This document shows positions 2,212 to 24,783 of a stretch of 31,326 bases of DNA, piece by piece. The DNA is from a virus: positions 1 through 31,326 of IMG/VR virus record IMGVR_UViG_3300024433_000031; one strand, written 5' to 3'. How positions within the stretch are numbered: the first letter of the stretch is position 1; every line of letters starts with the position of its first letter. Below the pieces are notes generated by a model, which saw nothing but the letters and a program-made list of their open reading frames with translations, made no database searches and was not told the origin of the DNA. The position numbers and the translations under genes are program-made.

Positions 2212-4770
2212 TTATTCTCTTATTAATAGTTGTAGGTCTTTAACTAACATATCATCATTACTATTAGTATTTTCTACATATAGTTCTATATAATCGTTTT
2301 GACTCATTAAAGTCCCATAAACAAGGGATAAGGCTCCAGTTGCATCAGCTTCAACTTCTGTAGCTGAACCTGGTAAAAGTACTCCATTTTTATAAAAATA
2401 AAAAGTATATGGATCTGTACCTCCGCCTTGTTTTTCGTAAGATATTGAAGCGTGTAAAGATACATAAACTTGTTTAGTACCATTGTACGTGTTTCTACCA
2501 ACAGCCGTTGTCGTGTACCTAACACCACTTTGTTGAGTGGCAAGTCCTCCTGTGTTTACGTTTGTAGGGGTGTTAGCTGATAAAGTTGTAACAGCTGTAT
2601 TGCCAACAACTGTCATTATTACACCTGAAATAGAGTTTAATATTCCTTGATTAGCAAACACATCGTAAGTATATGTTGCAGTTTGTGAATAATCAGGTAA
2701 ACTACTTGCTTCAGGTAAGAATACTTTTCCTGTTGTAAGTCCTGTGTTTATAAATGCATTAGATGATATAGTACCAAAACCTGTAGTAGACGCTGCGTTT
2801 ATATCAATACCGTTTTGAGTTTGTTGTGGGTGTATAATGCATCCATTAATATTAACAGCTCCAAATGAAGCAAAGTTATTAGCTCTTAGTTCTATCATTG
2901 AACAAGTGGCCCAACCAGAAGGTGTAGGGTTGGTTGTTTCATCATACCAACGTATTAATTCACATGATGCAAACTCTATTTTAGACGTGTCTCTAAATCT
3001 TAAACCTATACTAGGTGCTTGTATATAGAAAAATAATGTGTTTGATATATCAACTAAATCAAAGCCATCTATATCCATTACATTGTAACAATTCCTAAAC
3101 TGACAGTTGATTATTTCAAGTACTTTTGTTCTTCCATTATTAAATCCAGACGCAGTAACATTTGACCCCTTAATTAATAATGAGCCTGTCGTTGTAGATG
3201 ATATCCACACATCCCTTAGTGTGAAGTCAACATCTATTATTGTTATAAAATCCCCTGTGCCAGTATATACTAATTTATCTAGCTGTCTATTATTACCAAT
3301 TATTGAAACACCTTCGACTGAAACAACTAGCCTACTACTACATGTAACTGAACCTATGACTTGATAAGTAGTGTTAGCAGGTAAAGTTATGACACCTGCT
3401 ACAGGAGTTCCAAAGTCGCTTTCTTGAGTTACTTCTATTATAGCAGTTAAATTAGCCGTTCTTCTTACAGAACCAGCGTTCCATGTTAATGTATCTGTTA
3501 ATGTTGCTACTCTAGATGTTCCAACAGTACTATTCGTTGTATAAATATTTGGAATTGTAGCAAATTCTAAATTACCTGTTCCTGAATTATAGGTTAAAGC
3601 TTTTCCGTTATCTGCAGGAGCGACTGTTGTAGGAAAAGAATATGCAGAGTTTATATTTAATTTACTTACAGAAGCTCCTTGTGTTCCTGCTACTTGAAAA
3701 TCATATACTCCAGGAGCAATGTTAATTCCTACTCTTCCTCCGTTAAAGTTTAAAGTATCTGTAACAGTAGCTACAGTAGTTGTAGGAATTGTTCCTGAAG
3801 CAGTATATATACTTGAAGCAGCGCCTGTAGCAGCTTTCCAAACAGCGTCTCCAGTTCCAGTATCTTTGGTAAGTACATGCTCATTAGTTGCTAATCCTAC
3901 TCTTGTAAGAGCATTTGTAGCTAGTTGAGGTGTAATTTGTCCTGTTCCTCCATTAGCTATAGCTAGGGGTGTTCCAAGAGTTAATGCTCCTGTTATTCTT
4001 TGATCGCCTGATACATCAAGTCTATAAGCACTAGGAGCAGCGCCTATACCTACATTATCAGTACTAGCATCTAAGTATAACATTGGAGGATTTACTCCAT
4101 CACCATCAAATATTAAATCAAAAGCTCCAAGTGTTACTGTTCTATTACCTGTTAAACTACCATCTGTTGTATATATAGTAGGAGTTAAAGAAATAGCATT
4201 ATTAACCCATTCTCTTGAAGGAATTACTTTAGGATTAAGGTCTGCAGTAATGTTAGCTACACTATTACCTGTTCCTGAATAATAAGCTAAGTTATTTTCT
4301 ATAATAGTTTTACCTGAATTATTGTACAATTCTATACCGTCTACTCCCGAAAGTCTAACTTTTGTTGGAGGTGTTCCAACGCCTGTATTTTCAAAACTTA
4401 AATAAGTTGATACACTAGAACGTACTTTTAATGCTGTTACTGAACCAGTAGGATTATCAAAACTAATAGATTTAGTATTTGCTACTAACACTTCTCCTCC
4501 TGGGCCTAAATTAATATTTGCAGCTGTATCTACAGTAAATTCACTTAAGCCTTTAAAATGTAAAAAATTATTTGCTCCTGTAAGTAGTCTGCCTCCTGTA
4601 AGAGTTCCGTCTATTGAATAAATAGTAGTATCTCCTTGAGCAATTGGTATTAAATTACCATACCTATCTTTATAATAAAGAACTCCATCATAGCTATTTT
4701 TGAAAATCTCTATTCTAGCTTGAGTTTCGTTTCTAGCTTGTCTAGGAAATATTTTAGGTATAAGACTCAT
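2212..4770 (-). CDS. Large tail fibre/tailspike-like protein (852 aa)
   Basis: This is a long, Thr/Gly/Asn-rich beta protein with the look of a phage receptor-binding fibre. The N-terminus (MSLIPKIF, then a short helical part and a Tyr-rich Y-Y-K-D-R-Y-G-N strand) probably attaches it to the virion. Between about residues 195 and 440 are imperfect repeats opening with I-Y-T-(T/A) and carrying a TLTDTL(T/N)(W/F)N motif, separated by TGxGxxxW/F loops. Residues about 440-690 have the short regular strands and Asn ladders of a right-handed beta-helix. The last 130 residues form a compact beta domain (an aromatic FYFYKNG strand, then YIELYVEN) resembling a C-terminal trimerising or receptor domain. 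I saw no catalytic motif. Gene position at the distal end of the late block, next to the LamG gene, agrees with a host-recognition role. Confidence 0.75.
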   Translation of the reverse strand: MSLIPKIFPRQARNETQARIEIFKNSYDGVLYYKDRYGNLIPIAQGDTTIYSIDGTLTGGRLLTGANNFLHFKGLSEFTVDTAANINLGPGGEVLVANTKSISFDNPTGSVTALKVRSSVSTYLSFENTGVGTPPTKVRLSGVDGIELYNNSGKTIIENNLAYYSGTGNSVANITADLNPKVIPSREWVNNAISLTPTIYTTDGSLTGNRTVTLGAFDLIFDGDGVNPPMLYLDASTDNVGIGAAPSAYRLDVSGDQRITGALTLGTPLAIANGGTGQITPQLATNALTRVGLATNEHVLTKDTGTGDAVWKAATGAASSIYTASGTIPTTTVATVTDTLNFNGGRVGINIAPGVYDFQVAGTQGASVSKLNINSAYSFPTTVAPADNGKALTYNSGTGNLEFATIPNIYTTNSTVGTSRVATLTDTLTWNAGSVRRTANLTAIIEVTQESDFGTPVAGVITLPANTTYQVIGSVTCSSRLVVSVEGVSIIGNNRQLDKLVYTGTGDFITIIDVDFTLRDVWISSTTTGSLLIKGSNVTASGFNNGRTKVLEIINCQFRNCYNVMDIDGFDLVDISNTLFFYIQAPSIGLRFRDTSKIEFASCELIRWYDETTNPTPSGWATCSMIELRANNFASFGAVNINGCIIHPQQTQNGIDINAASTTGFGTISSNAFINTGLTTGKVFLPEASSLPDYSQTATYTYDVFANQGILNSISGVIMTVVGNTAVTTLSANTPTNVNTGGLATQQSGVRYTTTAVGRNTYNGTKQVYVSLHASISYEKQGGGTDPYTFYFYKNGVLLPGSATEVEADATGALSLVYGTLMSQNDYIELYVENTNSNDDMLVKDLQLLIRE

Positions 4771-22002: not shown

Positions 22003-22314
22003 ATGAAAAAGAATGAAACTAATTACTCCGTAAAGTCGATGAAACAGTATGAACCAACAGTGTATGTGGATGGCAAGCCAACAGACGAAACTTGTATCCG
22101 TGTATACGTTTGTATTGAGCGTAAAACAGTTTGGGAGGGTCTTAAAGACCAGTACTCTTATGGTGGCTTCTCGCTTAATGCAGGGATTACGCTTGAGCAA
22201 GCCAAAGAGCTACTAACTGAGGGTCAAGACCTAACAGGCAGAGTCATCTTCGTTGGTGAACCTGGTGTCCAAGAGGACGGTAGACCTGGCTTCTACACTG
22301 CACAACTTATCTAG
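22003..22314 (+). CDS. Hypothetical 103-aa protein with distinct codon use
   Basis: This is the first plus-strand gene. It has no membrane segment or signal peptide. It is beta-rich, with a YGGFSLNAG turn and an EQAKELL helix. I do not recognise the family. Its codons are richer in GC third positions (CTC, GGC, ATC, CGT) than its neighbours, which may mean higher expression or foreign origin. The leader (about 21905-22002) is unusual: it contains GACCC...GGGTC that can pair (21950-21975) and a GTGCGT element also found in the RNA modules downstream. A good terminator follows at 22,321, so it may be a single-gene transcript. Confidence 0.7.
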   Translation: MKKNETNYSVKSMKQYEPTVYVDGKPTDETCIRVYVCIERKTVWEGLKDQYSYGGFSLNAGITLEQAKELLTEGQDLTGRVIFVGEPGVQEDGRPGFYTAQLI

Positions 22315-22320
22315 TTGTGT

Positions 22321-22348
22321 GAGCCCCGAAATGGGGCTCTATCTTTTT
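22321..22348 (+). terminator. Rho-independent terminator after the 103-aa gene
   Basis: GAGCCCC (22321-22327) pairs with GGGGCTC (22333-22339) around a GAAAT loop, and TATCTTTTT follows. It starts 7 bp after the stop codon at 22314. Confidence 0.85.
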
Positions 22349-22397
22349 CCTAAATACTGAATACTAATTAGATTATTAACCAATAAACTGTGAAGTT

Positions 22398-22475
22398 ATG
22401 AAGAAATATGTTCTTTTTAATGGAGTTGTAATGCCTATTGAGGATTACAATGATATGATTGCCGACAGAGGGTAG
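22398..22475 (+). CDS. Possible 25-aa small ORF
   Basis: ATG follows GAAGTT and gives MKKYVLFNGVVMPIEDYND and six more residues ending in ADRG, then TAG. The composition is like a real protein start, but it stops as the structured RNA region begins. It could be a leader peptide, a broken gene or a chance frame. Confidence 0.35.
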   Translation: MKKYVLFNGVVMPIEDYNDMIADRG

Positions 22476-22775
22476 TCATTGTCTTTCCAATCGTCTAACA
22501 AACGGAGATTCGTCATCTTGGCAACAGAATTGACGGCTATTCATTATTAATTATAGCTTAAACTTATTATTAACTCTCATCCAATTGCTGGCAATGAAAT
22601 TGTCTTGAAATGAAACTACCCTTAGACAAGGTAGCATAGTTCAGTCAAGGATTGCAACCTTGTGAGAGTATGAAATTCGGATACAGTATAAAAACCGTAG
22701 GTTTGAATCCTGAAAACTGTGAGTGCGTAAGCATCTCTAGTAGAGTCACGGGATGTGGCTCTACTTTTTATTAAG
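22476..22775 (+). ncRNA. Structured RNA unit 1 with tRNA-like arms and terminator
   Basis: No convincing reading frame fits. Helices include CTACC/GGTAG (about 22617-22635), CAAGG-ATTGCAA-CCTTG (22646-22662, the shape of an anticodon arm with UGC) and a T-loop-like GGTTTGAATCC (22700-22710). I could not close an acceptor stem, so I do not call a tRNA. It ends in a terminator at 22,741. An imperfect GCCGACA/TGACGGC stem may join about 22,461-22,535. Confidence 0.5.
22741..22769 (+). terminator. Terminator of RNA unit 1
   Basis: TAGAGTCAC (22741-22749) pairs with GTGGCTCTA (22755-22763; one G-U pair), with a GGGAT loop, and CTTTTTATTA follows. The same stem halves and tail recur at 23,010-23,069. 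Confidence 0.8.
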
Positions 22776-22875
22776 AATTAGAAAAGCTGTACGTGCGTTG
22801 GCACATAGTAGTAAAAACTTAAGTTTATACTGCAACAGCGTATACCTAAGCAAGTAGATAAACTGCTTTTTATTA
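22776..22875 (+). ncRNA. Short hairpin unit with its own terminator
   Basis: Contains GTGC-GTTG-GCAC (22794-22805 region), a bulged stem AGTA-G-TAAA/TTTA-TACT around the 12-bp palindrome AAACTTAAGTTT, and a final AAGCA/TGCTT hairpin (22848-22868) followed by TTTTTATTAA. It has no open frame of note. A small RNA is possible, but the hairpins are short. Confidence 0.4.
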
Positions 22876-23069
22876 ACTTAGTGGCGTAATCGGATAGATA
22901 GTGGTAAGCAAACTATTGATGATTCTTGATAAAGGTAACTACAGATTATGTGCATAATGTCTGTAGCAGCAGGTTCGAATCCTTGCCGCCCAAAAAACTA
23001 TGAGTGCGGTAGAGTCACGAGATAGAGTAAGTATCCTAACAAAGGTTCTATCAATGTGGCTCTACTTTT
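22876..23069 (+). ncRNA. Structured RNA unit 2 with T-arm-like motif and duplicated terminator
   Basis: The main hairpin is CTACAG-ATTAT-GTGC-ATAAT-GT-CTGTAG (22939-22966). A T-loop-like GGTTCGAATCC follows (22972-22982), flanked by a bulged GCAGG/CCTTGC stem, and a bulged, broken TGGCG/CGCCCA outer stem could be a decayed acceptor. The 3' end repeats unit 1 (TGAGTGCG, then the TAGAGTCAC/GTGGCTCTA stem). I read it as a paralogue of unit 1 with an extra insertion. Confidence 0.5.
23010..23069 (+). terminator. Terminator of RNA unit 2, expanded by an inner hairpin
   Basis: TAGAGTCAC (23010-23018) and GTGGCTCTA (23056-23064) form the same stem as at 22,741, but the loop has grown to 37 nt and holds its own stem, GATAGA (23021-23026) with TCTATC (23047-23052). 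ACTTTTTATTA follows. Confidence 0.7.
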
Positions 23070-23077
23070 TATTACTA

Positions 23078-23153
23078 TGGGAAGTTAACTGCACATAGAT
23101 GCATATATAGATGCAGGGGAACAAAAGTAATTATTTGTTCTTCTGTCTTCCCA
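23078..23153 (+). ncRNA. Three-way junction RNA element
   Basis: An outer stem TGGGAAG (23078-23084)/CTTCCCA (23147-23153) encloses two arms: CTGCA/TGCAG (23089-23093 with 23112-23116) and GAACAAA/TTTGTTC (23119-23125 with 23134-23140). All three helices are perfect. No open frame crosses it and it is not followed by a T-run, so it is not a terminator. I checked for hammerhead core bases and did not find them. Confidence 0.6.
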
Positions 23154-23299
23154 ACGATATTTAATTACATAGTTTAATAGGTGTATACAGCATATACATG
23201 ACAAAATACCTTTAAAAGAAAAACACTATCGCATAATAACTAGATAGAGATGCATTGAGATATGCTGTAATATTTACTAATCCTTTAATACTTAAAATT

Positions 23300-23410
23300 A
23301 TGACATTTATATCACAAACAGCACCAGATGCCGAAGGGAATTACACTATGAAGTGGAAAGACCAAAACGGTAAAATAAAAATAACATCTCATAACTTATT
23401 TGAAATATAA
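23300..23410 (+). CDS. Small ORF, 36 aa
   Basis: ATG after an A/T-rich leader (CTTAAAATTATG) encodes MTFISQTAPDAEGNYTMKW and 17 further residues ending in SHNLFEI. The composition is ordinary for a small beta protein with charged turns (KDQNGKIKI), so it is probably translated. It is flanked by RNA structures on both sides. Between the three-way junction and this ORF (23154-23299) I see only weak hairpins such as GTATA-CAGCA-TATAC. Confidence 0.5.
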   Translation: MTFISQTAPDAEGNYTMKWKDQNGKIKITSHNLFEI

Positions 23411-24062
23411 TAAGTGCAGAAAATTGTTAAATTATACTAAGACCGTATCTCACCTCTCTTTGGTTAGGCTTGATCACCTGTAATCATTGACCCAAATGAC
23501 GTGAGTGAAGTCTTATTCATAACATATATTCACCGTTGGTTGGTTTCCTTATAAATCAATACTATATGTTATGACAATTTATCAGAAATGATAAACTAAA
23601 TATCCTGTAGGGTGAACTGCAGGATAACTTATTAAAGGTAGTCTGGCCCTTCTAATTACCAGACAGTCCAATGATACACTACAGATATCCGAGGTCCTTG
23701 ACTCTAACCTTGACAAAAAAGAGTAAATGTAATAAGAGAGTCTGATTAGTATGCCAAAATCTGAACATCGACTCTCTAAACTTATTGAAGTGAGGTTGGA
23801 CAGTTATACTGACTAGTGTGAAATACAACTAGGGAATGGAGTAATTACCATTTTGGTCCCTGACTGGATGCACAAAATCCTGCAGGTCTTTGCCTTGCAC
23901 CTCACTTCAACAAATTGCCATCACTATTTATAGTGTAAATATCAAGGGAGAATTTAGGCAACTCCCTTTTAATAAGGCAATGCAACATTCAGGCAATAAT
24001 CTGAGTGAATTGATAGGAATCTGCCAACAGATAGTGAGTTCGAATCTCACCCTTGCCTCTAA
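23411..24062 (+). ncRNA. Large ornate structured RNA (about 650 nt)
   Basis: A chain of strong helices fills the stretch: AAGAC + CTCAC / GTGAG + GTCTT (23439-23514); TCATAACATATA/TATATGTTATGA, 12 bp perfect (23517-23574); TTTATCA-GAAA-TGATAAA with a GNRA-type loop (23578-23595); TATCCTGTAG/CTGCAGGATA (23601-23626); GTCTGG/CCAGAC (23641-23664); AGAGAGTC/GACTCTCT (23735-23777); and TTGAAGTGAGGT/ACCTCACTTCAA, 12 bp perfect, enclosing a further multi-arm region (23785-23910). A tRNA-like segment ends it. The scale and the linkage to tRNA-like sequence recall GOLLD and ROOL class phage RNAs; whether it belongs to one of them is not known. Confidence 0.7.
23976..24058 (+). other. tRNA-like 3' segment of the large RNA
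   Basis: The T-arm is canonical: GTGAG-TTCGAAT-CTCAC (24034-24050), followed by CCTTGCC (24051-24057). GGCAATG (23976-23982) can pair with it at 6 of 7 positions. A D-arm-like ATTC/GAAT and a short ATCTG-CCAA-CAGAT hairpin lie between, but there is no seven-base anticodon loop, so it is not a normal tRNA. GGCAAT can instead pair with ATTGCC at 23914-23919, giving two exclusive folds. Confidence 0.55.
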
Positions 24063-24083
24063 AACTTATTAAAAATAAATGTT

Positions 24084-24357: not shown

Positions 24358-24783
24358 ATGGGAAAAAATAAATGTATACTAGTTGATGTTGATGGTACAT
24401 TAGCTAAAATGAAAAGAGGACCTGGAGAAAGAAGTCCTTATGATTGGGATAGAGTCTTAGAAGACCTGCCTAATCAACCTATTATAGAACTTGTAAATAC
24501 TCTTTGTGATGTATATACTATTATTATCCTTACGGGTAGAGATGGAATAGCATTAGAAGATACAAAGAAATGGTTAAAAGAATATGGAGTCTATTATGAT
24601 GAAATATATATAAGACCTGAAGGTAATAACCAAAAAGATTCTATAATTAAACATAATATATATGTTAATCATATACTACCTCATTATGATGTAGAATTTG
24701 TATTAGATGACCGTGATCAGGTTGTAAACTTATGGAGGTCTATTGGACTTACTTGTTTACAAGTTGATTATGGAAACTTTTAA
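24358..24783 (+). CDS. HAD-family polynucleotide 3'-phosphatase (141 aa)
   Basis: This stand-alone domain corresponds to the C-terminal phosphatase half of T4 polynucleotide kinase-phosphatase (PseT). It removes 3'-phosphates or 2',3'-cyclic phosphates from nucleic acid ends so they can be ligated or extended. Motif I is VDVDGTLA (nucleophile D10, general acid D12). RSPYDWDR (25-32) matches the T4 substrate segment. Motif II is ILTGRD (T59, R61). K98 lies in a position for motif III, and motif IV is LDDRDQVV (D117, D118). The end W-R-S-I-G-L-T-C-L-Q-V is also T4-like. The 5'-kinase domain is absent. T4 Pnkp heals tRNAs cut by host anticodon nuclease; here the gene lies among structured RNAs, so RNA repair is an attractive inference. 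Repair of DNA ends is the alternative. Confidence 0.93.
   Translation: MGKNKCILVDVDGTLAKMKRGPGERSPYDWDRVLEDLPNQPIIELVNTLCDVYTIIILTGRDGIALEDTKKWLKEYGVYYDEIYIRPEGNNQKDSIIKHNIYVNHILPHYDVEFVLDDRDQVVNLWRSIGLTCLQVDYGNF

Follow-up and report, generated by a model that had tools for sequence, protein, structure and literature searches.

What are parts of transfer RNAs doing in a piece of phage DNA in which no transfer RNA (tRNA) can be recognized? The question is raised by the IMG/VR virus record IMGVR_UViG_3300024433_000031 (positions 1 to 31,326; this whole 31,326-nt stretch is called the window below), in which a 1.8-kb gap, from 22315 to 24083 and essentially without convincing open reading frame (ORF), carries three sites with T-loop motifs and, at the first of them, an anticodon-like arm. 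The first-pass annotation of this DNA had suggested decayed tRNAs, tRNA mimics that attract host processing enzymes, or pieces of one larger RNA. The three sites are not one kind of thing, and two different phage RNAs are involved. The reading toward which we lean is that site 3, and perhaps site 2 in a degenerate form, is a tRNA-like RNA, the outer body of which (acceptor stem and T arm) has been kept, while the D/anticodon side has been replaced by other hairpins, in parallel to a natural class of tRNA scaffolds present in related phages. The anticodon-like arm of site 1 is the 3′ hairpin of a 99-nt RNA, termed here Family A, which is unrelated to tRNA. The gap itself is best explained as a block of structured non-coding RNAs located on the early strand of a crAss-like (Crassvirales-related) phage.

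The elements reported initially are real. The three T-loop motifs lie at the positions claimed, as GTAGG-TTTGAAT-CCTGA at 22697, GCAGG-TTCGAAT-CCTTG at 22969 and GTGAG-TTCGAAT-CTCAC at 24034, and the perfect anticodon-type arm CAAGG-ATTGCAA-CCTTG is present as described (Table 1). The pattern TTYGAAT occurs three times vs 0.42 expected, a number reached in 10 out of 1000 shuffles. That no standard cloverleaf can be closed also held true: ARAGORN predicts 0 tRNAs in the window, and the tRNA covariance model RF00005 gave no match there at E 0.001 and none up to E 10. The acceptors are indeed incomplete (6 of 7 pairs at site 3, no 7-bp acceptor at site 2) and the last site does lack a 7-nt anticodon loop, the loops of its fold being of 6 and 4 nt. 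Searches of the window for a transfer-messenger RNA (tmRNA), with ARAGORN in tmRNA mode and with RF00023, were negative, and no Rfam family reached its gathering score there, GOLLD, ROOL, group I introns and ribozymes included.

Site 3 presents the stronger case. Its minimum-energy fold comprises the acceptor, an 8-bp hairpin, a 5-bp hairpin and the T arm (z -2.1), and a strict T arm accompanied by a 6-pair acceptor is found in 0.02% (0.0002) of shuffled regions. The 26 nt from 24034 to 24059 are identical to the 3′ end, U73 included, of a canonical tRNA-Cys(GCA) encoded by the viral contig L366, and the 5′ acceptor strands of the two differ by one base (GGCAATG vs GGCAAGG). Between its tRNA ends, site 3 is wholly unlike the L366 tRNA-Cys: there is no D arm and no 7-nt anticodon loop, and two hairpins form a structured insert in the place of the anticodon arm. 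Site 2 is at best a degenerate tRNA-like element. Its T stem has 3 pairs unless a bulge is allowed, and its fold energy is unremarkable (z -0.8).

Elements of this type turned out to be frequent in relatives of the phage. They were first found by scanning these relatives for a T arm plus an acceptor, which returned candidates with perfect ends and no anticodon arm. We collected 223 of them from related Bacteroidota-associated phages, with acceptor and T arms intact, a D arm in most, and a structured insert replacing the anticodon arm. The class, as captured by the model R2, is defined by a 7-bp acceptor, a 5-bp T arm, U8, a D arm with a GG loop and a structured insert instead of the anticodon arm. 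The elements have in common the acceptor, the T arm and a D arm resembling that of tRNA-Leu (TGGCGGAATTGGTAGACGC); their lengths range from 66 to 190 nt, and A73 is found in 205 of the 223 elements. Acceptors vary with compensation, and so does the D stem, on which no selection was made (C-G 14 times and U-A 9 times at one pair). The 3′ half CAGGTTCRARTCCTGTCCTGACTA was detected in at least 120 stretches, with up to 6 matches in 5 kb. The same 3′ half yielded only 10 stretches in 84,980 prokaryote genomes, mostly from Bacteroidota metagenome bins; in isolate phages the matches were only partial and never exceeded a tRNA half. For 170 distinct elements with the 3′ half CAGGTTCRARTCCTGTCCTGACT, the matching AGTCAGG 5′ half is found at most 330 nt upstream in 151, when we estimate that about 2% would be expected by chance.

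The middle of these elements behaves differently from the ends. Anticodon calls by ARAGORN on 189 elements are at chance level (43, vs 33-44 in controls with shuffled inserts). Most inserts are unique, 161 of 189 being less than 70% similar to one another. When related inserts are grouped, the resulting 18 small clusters give better folds than their column-shuffled controls (16 negative values, mean z -2.2, 9 below -2) and display two-sided changes. The same middle may also be found under different acceptors and T arms, as in L134 and L237. An insert domain is shared by L248 (-7997), L275 (-2259), L291 (-585) and L330 (+836); it is bounded by tRNA-like ends and includes a covarying hairpin together with the conserved GGGTTGACCAC, with a fold z of -5.2. 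Up to 27 R2 hits were counted per record; some are ordinary tRNAs, and the elements are mixed with canonical tRNAs (L246/G032, G033). We found no description of these RNAs in the open-access literature searched. They are apparently an undescribed large group of phage RNAs, tRNA-like in nature, with a fair chance of being a kind of its own.

The genomic setting connects the window with this class. The terminase, capsid, portal and DNA polymerase of the window match those of Crassvirales-type phages; its TerL is 34% identical to that of Cellulophaga phage phi14:2 (Crassvirales, Steigviridae), and its PolA 57-98% identical to the counterparts in most of some 50 viral contigs. The late genes are oriented leftward as far as about 21.5 kb; from 22.0 kb on, the early genes are oriented rightward. 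Four sister phages with a TerL about 70% identical to that of the window (G003, G004, G007 and G016) have the order TerL - Family A - tRNA-like elements - PolA, the RNAs being on the early strand, and sites 2 and 3 of the window occupy the same place between TerL and PolA. Sister phages of this clade have tRNA-like elements with 7/7 acceptors and 5/5 T arms in which the anticodon arm is absent; some elements of the clade lack, as site 3 does, a D arm. In a further sister, L003 (PolA 77%), the matching block contains a 101-nt tRNA-like element with a 7/7 acceptor. In the cultured phi14:2, where no tRNA can be called, there is a similar element at 1761-1850 (R2 23.1 bits, E 0.0027, 6 of 7 acceptor pairs). 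Since hundreds of anticodon-less elements with intact, covarying acceptor and T arms are present in relatives, four sisters having them in the same stretch, we favor for site 3 a mimic with functional ends; the earlier proposal of tRNA mimics attracting processing enzymes is thus retained for this site and abandoned for the site 1 arm.

How would such RNAs work? Host RNase P and RNase Z would cut the exact ends by way of the acceptor/T-arm stack, the tRNA body would protect the RNA against degradation, and the work would be done by the variable domain inserted into it. RNase P recognizes the acceptor/T-arm stack by distance and not by sequence (PMC4919913), and an engineered tRNA scaffold, in which the acceptor, T and D arms are kept and an insert replaces the anticodon arm, serves to express RNAs in E. 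coli (PMC3753655). Sequence comparison shows that the scaffold is conserved and covaries, that an anticodon signal is lacking, that the inserts are structured and that the arrangement is syntenic; that the RNAs are transcribed, processed and stable, and what their inserts do, we infer. A broader proposal, which we put forward tentatively, is that environmental Bacteroidota-associated phages display, in each genome, many tRNA-like RNAs that have no anticodon and are not tmRNAs, each with a structured insert of its own. Such a set would amount to a phage-wide RNA library, matured by the host tRNA pathway, the inserts of which would act on targets in the host or in rivals, and sites 2 and 3 would be small members of it.

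Several observations weigh against the scaffold reading as applied to the window. With R2, site 3 obtains a weak score (12.3 bits, E 0.046 in 2.2 kb), and at site 2 only the T arm scores, also weakly (12.6 bits, E 0.038 in 2.2 kb). One acceptor pair of site 3 is mismatched, its position 8 is C and not U, a D arm is missing, and it carries U73 vs the A73 usual in the class. Exact-pattern searches for relatives returned only a canonical tRNA-Cys for site 3 and nothing for site 2. Neither site has a close homologue. In the nearest relative, L002 (PolA 98%), other RNAs occupy the place of sites 2 and 3. Lastly, the covariation of acceptor and T arm in the class is inflated, because pairing was partly used for selection. 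As U8 and the D arm are wanting, we say of site 3 that it appears to work like the anticodon-less scaffold class, and not that it is a proven member.

The same facts give some credit to a different explanation, namely that site 3 (and site 2) would be tRNA genes in decay, derived from a captured tRNA-Cys that has lost its D and anticodon arms and is kept by recency only. The 26-nt identity to the tRNA-Cys 3′ end, U73, the acceptor mismatch and the missing D arm at site 3 are what one would expect, as are the weak R2 scores and the lack of close homologues for both sites. However, decay is not expected to leave a 5/5 T arm and a 6/7 acceptor around a wholly replaced and well-folded middle. Moreover, the early regions of sisters and of phi14:2 contain elements whose ends pair and which have no anticodon arm, and the class is maintained with compensatory changes. 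We therefore regard decay as unlikely, albeit a serious competitor; of the initial suggestion of decayed tRNAs, what survives concerns the window's own copy of site 3 and does not extend to the site 1 arm.

Another possibility, which we consider improbable, is that the elements are decoys, i.e. tRNA mimics tying up host or defence proteins that act on tRNAs, such as anticodon nucleases or tRNA-binding toxins, with an arms race driving the variability of the inserts. The inserts are indeed hypervariable, and a gene for a polynucleotide kinase (PNK) 3′-phosphatase domain lies 300 bp downstream of site 3 (Table 1); three class-bearing phages, G033, G035 and G037, possess RNA ligase 1 and PNK-like genes. 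But anticodon arms are only at chance level, so that anticodon nucleases would have no target, RNA ligase was not found in the large contigs searched of the window's clade, and the inserts resemble structured domains with conserved loops of their own. Through the PNK phosphatase and RNA ligase 1 genes, the RNA elements may conceivably be linked to tRNA damage and repair. The occurrence beside the RNA block of a stand-alone 3′-phosphatase domain, its kinase part missing, is seen both in the window and in L002 (2385-2846).

Chance resemblance in an AT-rich non-coding region is, for the locus, very improbable, and applies to the site 1 T-loop only. This motif lies outside Family A, has only 4 pairs and scores 7.1 bits, for which reasons we treat it as probably due to chance; site 2 is weak too. 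For site 3 the explanation is refuted by the rarity of its pairing in shuffles and by the 26-nt identity to a tRNA, and for the site 1 arm by the conservation of Family A far beyond chance. Least credible of all are genuine tRNAs with small introns, or permuted, and spliced to a normal cloverleaf: with introns allowed, ARAGORN does propose a tRNA in most of the 189 elements and, at a 90% threshold, in a stretch ending at site 3, but shuffling the inserts gives equal or higher numbers (144-150 vs 137), the proposed anticodons are scattered across nearly all amino acids, and the single call in the region of the window is weak (0.09 such calls per shuffle). Canonical, intron-bearing and permuted tRNAs were accordingly rejected, and the relaxed ARAGORN searches, with calls about as many as in shuffled sequence, uncovered no overlooked canonical tRNA.

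The anticodon-like arm had been grouped with the T-loop at 22700; this was wrong, since the arm closes a different RNA, ending at 22670. Seen as part of a larger RNA it was correctly perceived, but that RNA belongs to a new non-tRNA family and does not span all the sites. Family A is composed of an 8-bp terminal stem (P1), a TCCAA(TT)GC-GG strand and a 5-bp hairpin (P3) with an RTTGCAA loop, stacked directly on P1, and all of these are found in the window. The general form is 5′-TACTCTCA-TCCAA(TT)GCAGG-[about 6 to 160 nt]-CAAGG-RTTGCAA-CCTTG-TGAGAGTA-3′, with a middle that differs in nearly every copy. The arm plus the following TGAGAGTA, i.e. the 3′ end, is present in at least 120 viral stretches, and 97 distinct members have the RTTGCAA-loop hairpin adjoining P1. 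Both stems covary, P1 as GTTCTTG/CAAGAAC, ACTCTTG/CAAGAGT, ACTCTTA/TAAGAGT, TCTCTCA/TGAGAGA and ATAAATG/CGTTTAT, and P3 as CAGGG/CCCTG and TAGGG/CCCTA. In 25 diverse members, 99.4% of the cells pair, with two-sided changes at 6 pairs vs 1.5 in shuffles. A scan of 30 large viral records with R1, a covariance model built from 25 sequences (that of the window among them, so that its own score in Table 1 is not independent), was positive in 24, with one to three copies, usually one. Two clades with terminases no more than about 30% identical both have the family on the early strand, and in L304 its core, with a different P1, is nested within a tRNA-like element.

The arm and its following strand are absent from the 84,980 prokaryote genomes, a short member had no match among 50,697 phage records, and Rfam 15 gave no known family, either in the window or for the members within other scanned loci. 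Judged by Rfam 15 and the searched collections, Family A would be a new RNA family. Its architecture (terminal stem, conserved junction strand, variable arm, conserved hairpin) recalls that of riboswitch or ribozyme junction RNAs in general, and the P3 loop (UUGC) could plausibly form a pseudoknot with the GCAG strand, both being nearly invariant. Mosaic flanks had first suggested an attachment site or cassette junction; this idea, and that of an N4-like hairpin promoter, were dropped because the upstream ‘modules’ belong to a single RNA with a covarying terminal stem, of which they are the variable arm. One phage contig bearing Family A, L060, also has a Hatchet self-cleaving ribozyme (46-208, 81 bits).

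The remainder of the gap appears to hold further RNAs. The 3′ end of the one we call Family B is matched in 37 viral stretches, and the window copy is 79.7% identical to L198 over 118 positions. Family B, ending in GTATACCTGAGCATGTAGACAAACTGCT, is also found in L023, L034, L057 and others, with a covarying upstream hairpin (GACG/CGTC, GCAG/CTGC, AACG/CGTT). Two more regions are likely structured RNAs: 23440-23732, 93.6% identical in L002 at another position, and 23779-23916, which would fold into a closed hairpin domain of 138 nt (z -3.5). Sister phages have these RNAs in shuffled order, and the whole block found short weak matches only in the phage collection. As in the window, an early-strand ORF precedes the R1 match in G004. 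A Family C, with pairing constant ends and a variable middle (TAATGCACC...CAGTTGTAAT-[variable insert]-ATTACAACTGAGTGCA), occurs in L140, L056, L092 and others. A group I intron (84 bits) was noted in L048 (18298-18533), and PolA is in two pieces, possibly by an intron, in G005 and G016.

Table 1. Positions in the window of the RNA elements discussed and of the genes next to them
Feature	Position	Strand	Remarks
First early-strand gene	22003-22314	+	Directly upstream of Family A; matches no known family
Family A RNA	22572-22670	+	R1 68.6 bits, E 4.6e-13 (not independent)
Family A P1 (terminal stem)	22572-22579/22663-22670	+	7/8 pairs
Family A conserved strand	22580-22591	+	TCCAATTGCTGG
Family A variable domain	22592-22645	+	
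Family A hairpin P3	22646-22662	+	Loop ATTGCAA; the ‘perfect anticodon-type arm’
Site 1 T-loop-like sequence	22697-22713	+	4 pairs including one G-U; 7.1 bits with R2; outside Family A
Terminator-like hairpin	22741-22773	+	TAGAGTCAC-GGGAT-GTGGCTCTA then CTTTTTATTA; read from sequence
Family B RNA	22780-22877	+	Ends in GTATACCTAAGCAAGTAGATAAACTGCT; fold z -1.8
Site 2	22880-22992	+	D-arm-like GTGGCGTAATCGG, long hairpin, T arm 22969-22985; no 7-bp acceptor
Second copy of terminator-like stem and tail	23009-23074	+	Different, longer loop insert; direct repeats D2 and D4
Site 3 RNA	23976-24058	+	No D or anticodon arm; minimum-energy fold, R2 score, tRNA-Cys identity
Site 3 acceptor	23976-23982/24051-24057	+	6/7 pairs
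Site 3 hairpins	23986-24007 and 24019-24032	+	
Site 3 T arm	24034-24050	+	Perfect, 5/5
Site 3 U73	24058	+	
PNK 3′-phosphatase domain gene	24358-24783	+	No kinase domain; phrog_505 positions 159-295 of 295, E 3.9e-53; downstream of site 3

Among known systems, tmRNA (RF00023) is the nearest natural relative in architecture, with a tRNA-like domain of acceptor and T arm and a long body where a tRNA has its anticodon arm. Genuine tmRNAs can be encoded by phages of this group: phi14:2 (L368, NC_021806.1) has an unannotated one at 4031-4502, with a G3-U70 acceptor (RF00023 46 bits, E 3.8e-16, just below the gathering score), at a place where former hypothetical ORFs were removed, and a contig also bearing tRNA-like elements, L248, has another at 1088-1533 (59 bits). 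However, G3-U70, the alanine identity pair of tmRNA, is found in 0 of the 223 class elements, site 3 having C3-G70, and the class has short inserts that for the most part bear no relation to one another and that the tmRNA model does not recognize; lacking both G3-U70 and a model match, a tmRNA identity was rejected. The engineered tRNA scaffold keeps the acceptor stem and the T and D arms, the anticodon stem-loop being made into an insertion region designed to stay a hairpin (PMC3753655), but it is man-made, whereas the class is natural, resides in phages, and has hypervariable inserts and compensated acceptor changes. GOLLD and ROOL are large structured phage RNAs of unknown function found near tRNA islands, with tRNAs sometimes in the GOLLD linker (PMC12286853); neither was matched by Rfam in the window or in the loci scanned, and the elements described here are of 66-190 nt and tRNA-bodied. 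Canonical phage tRNA genes share with the class features of the T arm, acceptor and discriminator, and are interspersed in the same arrays (L246), but the class has no 7-nt anticodon loop beyond chance.

Since tRNA finders discard or misname such elements, a whole class of phage RNAs may have escaped notice. Family A adds a second, independently conserved phage RNA, with a clean motif of constant ends and free middle that is directly searchable. The question of the tRNA-like elements can be tested, because the cultured phi14:2, which grows on Cellulophaga baltica, carries a similar one. If these RNAs are matured like tRNAs, then phages would have evolved independently the tRNA-scaffold trick of RNA engineering, and the hypervariable inserts would become readable as candidate RNA effectors.

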